From Actinocrinis puniceicyclus (GTDB lineage: Bacteria; Actinomycetota; Actinomycetes; Streptomycetales; Catenulisporaceae): a stretch of DNA of 51,783 nt. The DNA lies in contig NZ_JAGSXH010000037.1 of assembly GCF_018283645.1 (NCBI RefSeq), forward strand, positions 1 to 51,783. The letters run 5' to 3'. The notes beneath the pieces were generated by a model. That model did no database searches, was not told the DNA's origin, and saw only the letters and a program-made list of their open reading frames with translations. Positions 50,107-51,538 of the stretch are shown one piece after another. A program made the translations under genes and the position numbers. Numbering within the stretch: position 1 is the stretch's first letter; each line of letters begins with the position of its first letter.

Positions 50107-50152
50107 CCGTCGCCGACCCGCTAAGGATTTCGTGTTTGGCCGCCGCGTTGGC

Positions 50153-50247
50153 TAGTATGGCGGAGCCCGCCCGGGAACAGAGCAGTTCCATGGAGACGTA
50201 CAACGTTTGTTCCTGGCGGGACCAAAGATCCGCCCGCGAGGGCGGAT
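50153..50247 (+). other. Structured leader upstream of tRNA-Ala with alternative hairpins
   Basis: A TAGTAT box (50153-50158) is followed by complementary segments. CCCGCC..GGGAACA (50166-50179) can pair with TGTTCC..GGCGGG (50208-50220) over about 12 bp. Alternatively GGAAC (50174-50178) can pair with GTTCC (50185-50189). A separate perfect hairpin, ATCCGCCC / GGGCGGAT with a 4-nt loop, lies at 50228-50247, 8 nt before the tRNA. The whole may be a structured pre-tRNA leader, a small RNA or a terminator-antiterminator. Confidence 0.5.
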
Positions 50248-50255
50248 TCGAATAA

Positions 50256-50328
50256 GGGGCCATAGCTCAGCTGGTAGAGCATCTGTCTGGCAGACAGAAG
50301 GTCAGGGGTTCAAGTCCCCTTGGCTCCA
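50256..50328 (+). tRNA. tRNA-Ala, anticodon GGC
   Basis: A complete 73-nt cloverleaf: acceptor GGGGCCA / TGGCTCC with one G-T pair and discriminator A, D-arm TAGCTCAGCTGGTAGAGCA, anticodon loop CTGGCAG (anticodon GGC), T-arm AGGGGTTCAAGTCCCCT. CCA is not encoded. The integrase gene converges on its 3' end, so this tRNA is the likely attachment site. Confidence 0.97.
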
Positions 50329-50335
50329 CAAGCCA

Positions 50336-50369
50336 AAACACCCCCGGTCGATCAAGGCCGGGGGTGTTT
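50336..50369. terminator. Terminator between tRNA-Ala and the integrase gene
   Basis: AAACACCCCCGG and CCGGGGGTGTTT form a perfect 12-bp stem with a 10-nt loop, and the right arm ends in TGTTT. It can stop transcription from both the tRNA and the integrase side. Confidence 0.85.
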
Positions 50370-50392: not shown

Positions 50393-51538
50393 TCAGTCAC
50401 CGCGGAGTCTCTTCTCCACCTTCTTCAGCGCACGACGCCGAGCCTCACTGCTGGCCTTCTGGTAGATCTCCAGCGTGACCGACGAGCGCGAGTGTCCGAG
50501 AATCTCCATCGCGGCGCGCGGTTCGACGCGCAGTTCGCCGAGCAGGGATGCGCAGGTGTGCCGAGCGCCATGCGGTGTCAGGTGGCGCAGGCCGGCCGCA
50601 GCCCTGATCCGATCAAACGACCGGTTGAAGTTGCGCGGCTCGACCTGCCGACCGGTGCGCGTGGTGATGACCAAGCCGGATTCGGTCCACTTGTCGCCGG
50701 CCTTGTCCCGCCACTCGTTTTGCAGGTCCTGGTGATCGGTCAGCGCGTCGCGCACGACACTGAGCAGGGGGAGCGGACGACGACCGGCGCGTGTCTTCAC
50801 GTCGGACAGGTGGAGCGAGTGGCCGGCCCGCTGGCTCTGCTTGCGGATGCGAATCTCGCGCCCCGTCCAGTCGACATCGGCCCAGCGGACGCCGAGCGCT
50901 TCCCCGCGCCGTAAGCCGAGGTAGAAGACCATGACGAACGCCGGGTAGAGCTGGTCACCCGTCGCGGTCTTCAGGAAGCGCCGTACCTCATCAGGTGTCC
51001 ACGGCTCATTCTTGTCAGCGTCCTTGTTCTCAAAGCTGAACTCGACGAGCCGCGCCACGTTGCGCTGAATGAGTTCTTCCTTCATCGCCCGAGTGAGCGC
51101 CGCACTCAGCGTCGTACGCATGTTGCGGACCTTGCTCTCACCGTCGCCCGCCGCAATGCGCTGGTTGAAGAATGTCTGGCAGTCCTTGACTGTCAGCCGG
51201 TTGAGAGGTCGCTTACCGAGGCCCGGCTTCAGGTAGAGCCGCGTCATCAGCTCATACAGGACATAGGTCGAAGGCCGCTTCGAGACCTTGACCACGTGCT
51301 CTAGCCAGTGGTCGAGCCAGTCGCCGAGCTTCCACGACTTCACCGTCTGCGGGATGCCCGCCTTCTCTTGAGCCAGTGCCTTGAGCAGTTTGTCGTGTGC
51401 CTCCTCCCACGTCTTGCCGTAGACGGTCAGGCGCTCCCGAGTGCCGTCCGGTGTGGTGACGTAGGCGCGGCCCATGTGACGACCGTCCTTGCGCTTGGTG
51501 ATCGTGCCAGCGCCGTTCGGATTGCGCTTCCGGACCAT
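50393..51538 (-). CDS. int: Tyrosine site-specific integrase
   Basis: The 381-residue recombinase has an N-terminal AP2-like arm-binding region (about residues 1-60), a SAM-like core-binding domain (about 70-165) and a catalytic domain with Arg210 (LGLRRGEALG), Lys248 (VKTRAG), His323 and Arg326 (HGARHTCA), His349 (LGHSRSSVT) and nucleophile Tyr359 (IYQKAS). All six residues are present, so it should be active. It overlaps the excisionase gene (ATGA). Confidence 0.96.
   Translation of the reverse strand: MVRKRNPNGAGTITKRKDGRHMGRAYVTTPDGTRERLTVYGKTWEEAHDKLLKALAQEKAGIPQTVKSWKLGDWLDHWLEHVVKVSKRPSTYVLYELMTRLYLKPGLGKRPLNRLTVKDCQTFFNQRIAAGDGESKVRNMRTTLSAALTRAMKEELIQRNVARLVEFSFENKDADKNEPWTPDEVRRFLKTATGDQLYPAFVMVFYLGLRRGEALGVRWADVDWTGREIRIRKQSQRAGHSLHLSDVKTRAGRRPLPLLSVVRDALTDHQDLQNEWRDKAGDKWTESGLVITTRTGRQVEPRNFNRSFDRIRAAAGLRHLTPHGARHTCASLLGELRVEPRAAMEILGHSRSSVTLEIYQKASSEARRRALKKVEKRLRGD

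Follow-up and report, generated by a model that had tools for sequence, protein, structure and literature searches.

Which role, if any, is played by the hairpins encoded just upstream of the tRNA-Ala(GGC) gene of Actinocrinis puniceicyclus? The gene lies in the window (the whole stretch of 51,783 nucleotides analysed), which derives from a 6.77-Mb genome of a family including Catenulispora and Actinospica. In a preliminary description, a GGAAC sequence able to pair with either of two downstream segments, and a separate hairpin closer to the tRNA, both found behind a TAGTAT box and at the integration site of a mobile element, were taken as hints of a regulatory switch, an attenuator or a small RNA. 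All the sequence elements named there are present, at the positions given for them. The regulatory switch reading of the hairpins is not supported. We consider it reasonably probable that they belong to a 5' leader which folds on itself in a monocistronic pre-tRNA-Ala(GGC), guards the tRNA from misfolding with a GC-rich leader and keeps the RNase P site single-stranded.

The order of signals is that of a tRNA gene transcribed with a 5' leader. On the + strand, GATTTC (50126-50131) is followed after 21 bases by TAGTAT (50153-50158), a -10 box of the TAnnnT type, and then by the predicted leader (50165-50255), the tRNA-Ala(GGC) gene (50256-50329; ARAGORN; Rfam RF00005, 71.3 bits), and a terminator-like hairpin (50336-50369; 14 pairs, TTTGA around the 3' end, -28.7 kcal/mol, z -5.2). 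GATTTC-N21-TAGTAT (50126-50158) is the conserved promoter of the gene. Of 50 distinct tRNA-Ala(GGC) gene copies, the window's own left out, 48 are preceded by the pattern GATTTN-N20-22-TAnnnT, and the two copies lacking it (L050 and L051) reside in other families of the same class. All the 12 Catenulisporaceae loci carry GATTTC, 21 bases and TARTAT, with the leader next, and TAGTAT aligns with TAATAT, TAATGT or TAAAGT in relatives. The upstream, -35-region element GATTTC, which recurs at other tRNA-Ala(GGC) copies, fits GnTTnG, the -35 consensus of stable-RNA genes in Propionibacterium acnes (PMC3848588), an actinobacterium in which most tRNA genes are individually transcribed (PMC3848588). 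GATTTN-N20-22-TAnnnT may represent a stable-RNA promoter class. Spacing is unusually wide if GATTTN is taken as the -35 hexamer. The TAGTAT promoter very probably drives transcription of the region upstream of the tRNA. RNA polymerase would start around 50165, seven bases past the end of the box, a site predicted from the -10 spacing, and the transcript would be monocistronic, made of a leader of about 91 nt, the tRNA and the terminator-like hairpin.

Folded in silico from about 50165, leader and tRNA reach -76.5 kcal/mol (z -4.7), with a 5' hairpin and a second hairpin ahead of 7 unpaired bases, and with the cloverleaf left intact. Hairpin 1 (50166-50220, + strand) begins almost at the very 5' end predicted for the transcript, and its 5' arm, starting with CCCGCC-C-GGGAACA, is closed by TGTTCCTGGCGGG. 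GGAAC (50174-50178) faces TGTTCC (50208-50213), its long-pairing partner. The further pairing mentioned in the preliminary description proved stronger than it had appeared, since the GGAACA/TGTTCC helix is extended outward, and enclosed, by CCCGCC from 50166 paired with GGCGGG ending at 50220. Counted from the end of the -10 box, the 97-nt leader has a folding energy of -45.1 kcal/mol, compared with -31.5 +/- 3.7 for shuffled sequences (z -3.7; 0 of 200 as good), and the long pairing has a probability of 0.998 at equilibrium.

Conservation of hairpin 1 was assessed at 12 tRNA-Ala(GGC) loci of Catenulisporaceae, the window's own included, which represent three genera. The hairpin is present in all of them. 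The CCC/GGG base of the stem is invariant, and the distal stem varies by genus, being GAGATC/GATCTC in Catenulispora, GCAG/CTGT in Actinospica and GGGAACA/TGTTCCT in the window, with pairing kept throughout. Two-sided changes among the three genera were counted at five stem positions. Pairs were tabulated by hand on a structure-guided alignment, since MAFFT puts the 3' arm out of register. The conservation of pairing is an observation; that selection acts on it appears likely from the sequences, for which the evidence is good but of small sample, with three independent lineages aligned by hand. Leader z-scores range from -2.9 to -4.5 in the window and in Actinospica. Invariant in all 12 loci is also ACCA, directly 3' of hairpin 1 (50221-50224, + strand), and the two together look like a tRNA acceptor stem that ends in ACCA. 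In two genomes, G001 and G010, the search pattern used recovered no tRNA-Ala(GGC) gene. In a species-level genome collection a leader-shaped pattern was detected at six loci, each of them in a Catenulispora or Actinospica record and apparently corresponding to tRNA-Ala loci already found; the idea of a dispersed element was discarded, the pattern being confined to these loci.

Similar leaders occur elsewhere in the order. Most Streptomyces genomes examined carry two tRNA-Ala(GGC) copies, one of which often resides downstream of the same phosphatase gene as the tRNA-Ala(GGC) of the window, and both copies have the GATTT-spaced promoter. Most Streptomyces leaders, those of phosphatase-linked copies included, form a 5' hairpin from about 8 bases past the -10 box, and in a minority another hairpin follows ahead of the tRNA. 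We do not claim that the hairpins descend from a common ancestor, because leader sequences differ between the Streptomyces copies and from those of Catenulisporaceae. One other member of the order (L034) has a short leader only; the two outgroup loci are divided between a short leader (L050) and one with a hairpin (L051). The short leaders of L034 and L050 therefore indicate that a long folded leader is common, not obligatory. In the genome from which the window derives, the nearest matching promoter is found 7-13 nt before the gene for many other tRNAs; the distance of 97 nt at tRNA-Ala(GGC) is the longest, save one doubtful match at 148 nt. A folded leader as a feature of all tRNAs was rejected, since many leaders of this genome look short, and with leaders that appear to measure 7-13 nt at many of its tRNAs, the long folded type seems dispensable in general. 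Seemingly long and folded leaders precede also a tRNA-Glu(TTC) gene (L082) and two tRNA-Gly(GCC) genes (L083 and L084) of the same genome, and some of them carry GTCGCC or GGGGGAAACC motifs, as do Streptomyces tRNA-Ala leaders.

What a folded leader may do for the tRNA was explored in folding models. The cloverleaf of the window's tRNA reaches a probability of 0.89 with the native leader, the same value as for the tRNA alone, and 0.56 with shuffled leaders, none of 40 being as good. The spacer before the RNase P cleavage site (50249-50255, + strand) is predicted to be single-stranded, positions -6 to -1 being unpaired with a probability of 0.99 against 0.46 in shuffled leaders. Over 47 distinct leaders, the mean cloverleaf probability is 0.76 with native leaders, 0.58 with shuffled leaders and 0.51 with upstream genomic DNA, native leaders doing better than shuffles in 36 loci and better than genomic DNA in 41. 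Folding is stronger than in neighbouring DNA in 40 of the 47 loci, and openness of the cleavage site, averaged over all leaders, is 0.65 for native and 0.45 for shuffled sequences. The better sparing of the cloverleaf by native leaders in model folds is a computed result, as the letters and the conserved promoter are observed ones. Stem-loops or pairing at the cleavage site are known anti-determinants, which hinder RNase P (PMC9433436). According to the mechanism we propose, the leader would fold on itself, forming the long hairpin nearly flush with the 5' end and, in the species of the window, the second hairpin; once folded, it could not invade the GC-rich tRNA. The last seven leader bases would stay unpaired, and RNase P would reach the cleavage site and free the leader. 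We infer insulation in the same manner as transcription, its start site and the nuclease shielding considered below. The main weakness of the insulation reading is given by Catenulispora, whose leaders show neither effect in the models. Insulation is not supported there, because in most cases the cloverleaf is no better with the native leader (0.60) than with shuffles (0.57-0.73), and the cleavage site is not more open than with shuffled leaders.

RNA stabilisation by a 5' hairpin is possible (PMC3997798), and the flush hairpin may, in addition to insulating the tRNA, shield the precursor from 5'-end-dependent nucleases. Alternatively, hairpin 1 could serve mainly as a 5' cap against this type of decay, insulation being incidental. 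In all three genera the predicted transcript enters the stem at about +2 or +3, and in many Streptomyces leaders the stem begins near the predicted start; the mean pairing of positions +3 to +8 amounts to 0.77-0.80. Yet all these positions are counted from start sites deduced from promoter spacing, and many other tRNAs of the same genome apparently lack such a hairpin. We regard a role mainly as a cap as unlikely.

Hairpin 2 (50227-50248, + strand; 9 pairs, GCGA loop) has bearing on a further set of explanations. Its core, ATCCGCCC (50228-50235) paired with GGGCGGAT (50240-50247), is the perfect 8-bp hairpin of the preliminary description, located before the tRNA as reported. The hairpin was not found in the relatives, and is followed by CGAATAA, not by a T-run. 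An intrinsic terminator or attenuator was rejected because the T-run is missing and a terminator scan gave no + strand match in the leader; the attenuator hypothesis loses ground also because the hairpin was not found in relatives. A T-box was likewise rejected, Rfam giving no T-box match at gathering scores or at E values up to 10, nor any match to families other than tRNA, and a putative leader peptide, METYNVCSWRDQRSAREGGFE (ATG at 50190, stop TAA at 50253-50255), was discarded for having no counterpart in relatives, Catenulispora leaders containing no ATG ahead of the tRNA boundary. A small RNA might still arise, if the leader freed by RNase P, or ended at hairpin 2, were stable and acted on other RNAs. 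What RNase P would release is indeed a stretch of about 91 nt, strongly folded and with a promoter of its own. However, there is neither a T-run 3' of hairpin 2 nor an Rfam match, Catenulispora leaders lack hairpin 2 and lead directly to the tRNA over 7 nt, and loop sequences are not conserved across the three genera. As far as sequences tell, no terminator signal would give such an RNA a 3' end before the tRNA, and Catenulispora leaders are not spaced in this way. A separate small RNA, as proposed in the preliminary description, is not supported, and we deem it quite unlikely.

The mobile element is real. A tyrosine integrase gene (50393-51538, - strand; Pfam PF00589, 1.8e-23) adjoins the tRNA, and the tRNA 3' half has an exact 44-nt copy in the same genome (50287-50330 is identical to positions 1562-1605 of contig C118). 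The copy probably shows where the element which begins in the window has its other end; the two contigs are unjoined in the assembly. Partial copies of the tRNA 3' end occur 8.5 to 42 kb past the same gene in three other genomes, the gene and copy being found at 6667000 and 6708957 in G003 (contig C1), 256625 and 272221 in G011 (C12), and 84016 and 92557 in G015 (C18). Within the order, integration seems to have hit tRNA-Ala(GGC) repeatedly. The preliminary description was right in placing an integration site at this gene, but attachment occurs at the tRNA 3' half, not at the leader. The leader is of the same kind in genomes for which no such 3'-end copy was listed. Because of the site of attachment and of the alike leaders in genomes without a listed copy, element and hairpins are probably unrelated. 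The notion that the hairpins are a by-product, a GC-rich spacer at an integration hot spot which folds for composition with no selection on the RNA, may appeal to the ease with which GC-rich sequences fold and to the element copies found at this gene in several genomes. The two-sided stem changes, the z-scores of the window and Actinospica leaders, the 40 of 47 loci folding more strongly than neighbouring DNA, and the attachment of the element on the opposite side of the tRNA make it very unlikely.

A last idea concerns control of tRNA-Ala production. GTTCC (50185-50189) can pair with GGAAC across a 6-nt loop, to form the short hairpin GGAAC-AGAGCA-GTTCC (50174-50189, + strand). The two pairings of GGAAC exclude each other, as previously noticed, but are far from balanced, the probability at equilibrium being 0.0004 for the short and 0.998 for the long one. 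The short hairpin is a folding intermediate only: it is dominant while the growing chain measures about 25-49 nt, and gives way when the 3' arm of the long hairpin has been made. Since an equally good local competitor of some paired 5-mer occurs in 48 of 300 dinucleotide shuffles (16%), the short alternative alone is within chance. Conservation of pairing, which the preliminary description had indicated as a way to check its proposal, holds for the long hairpin and not for the short one, which has no good counterpart in Actinospica, where forcing the nearest equivalent costs 15 kcal/mol. Catenulispora has a comparable alternative, GATC-AGCAA-GATC, 3.3 kcal/mol above the best fold; it is explained by GATC being its own complement, a sequence occurring four times in the leader. 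It is highly improbable that the leader hairpin is a conserved Streptomycetales cis element controlling the supply of tRNA-Ala(GGC), either by a kinetic switch between three-way junction and long hairpin, or by a protein binding the stem and the invariant ACCA. A regulatory switch in which the three-way junction with the short hairpin competes with the long hairpin to set tRNA-Ala production or processing is hardly credible, for, although the short hairpin is the first to form during transcription and the forced three-way junction lies only 4.1 kcal/mol above the best fold, there is no terminator or ribosome site to act upon.

Structured tRNA leaders are little noticed because the mature tRNA hides them. 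A hairpin kept by compensatory changes across the family, with similar ones across the order, suggests selection on the leader. The tRNA-Ala(GGC) leader adds no new type of regulator, and offers a simple system for testing leader insulation of tRNA folding.

No direct precedent for structured tRNA leaders was found in the open literature, which is weak evidence, and comparison is best made with three known systems. T-box and leader-peptide attenuators of aminoacyl-tRNA genes, such as alaL-alaS of Streptomyces lividans (PMC8079986), share with the window alternative hairpins and the alanine tRNA theme, but the window lacks a downstream coding gene, an Rfam T-box match, a T-run and a conserved leader peptide. 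The 5'-terminal stem-loops that stabilise mRNAs, such as those of ompA or papA in E. coli, resemble the predicted hairpin of the window in being placed almost at the 5' end; the hairpin of the window precedes a stable RNA, not an mRNA. The third system is formed by the 5' leaders which RNase P cuts from bacterial pre-tRNAs, and which have their own promoter, leader, tRNA and terminator, and single-stranded bases at the cleavage site. With its approximately 91 nt, the leader described in this work is longer and more structured than most leaders predicted in the same genome, where the majority of tRNAs whose promoter matches similarly have 7-13 nt, and appears to be an ordinary but unusually well-folded tRNA leader, maintained by selection.
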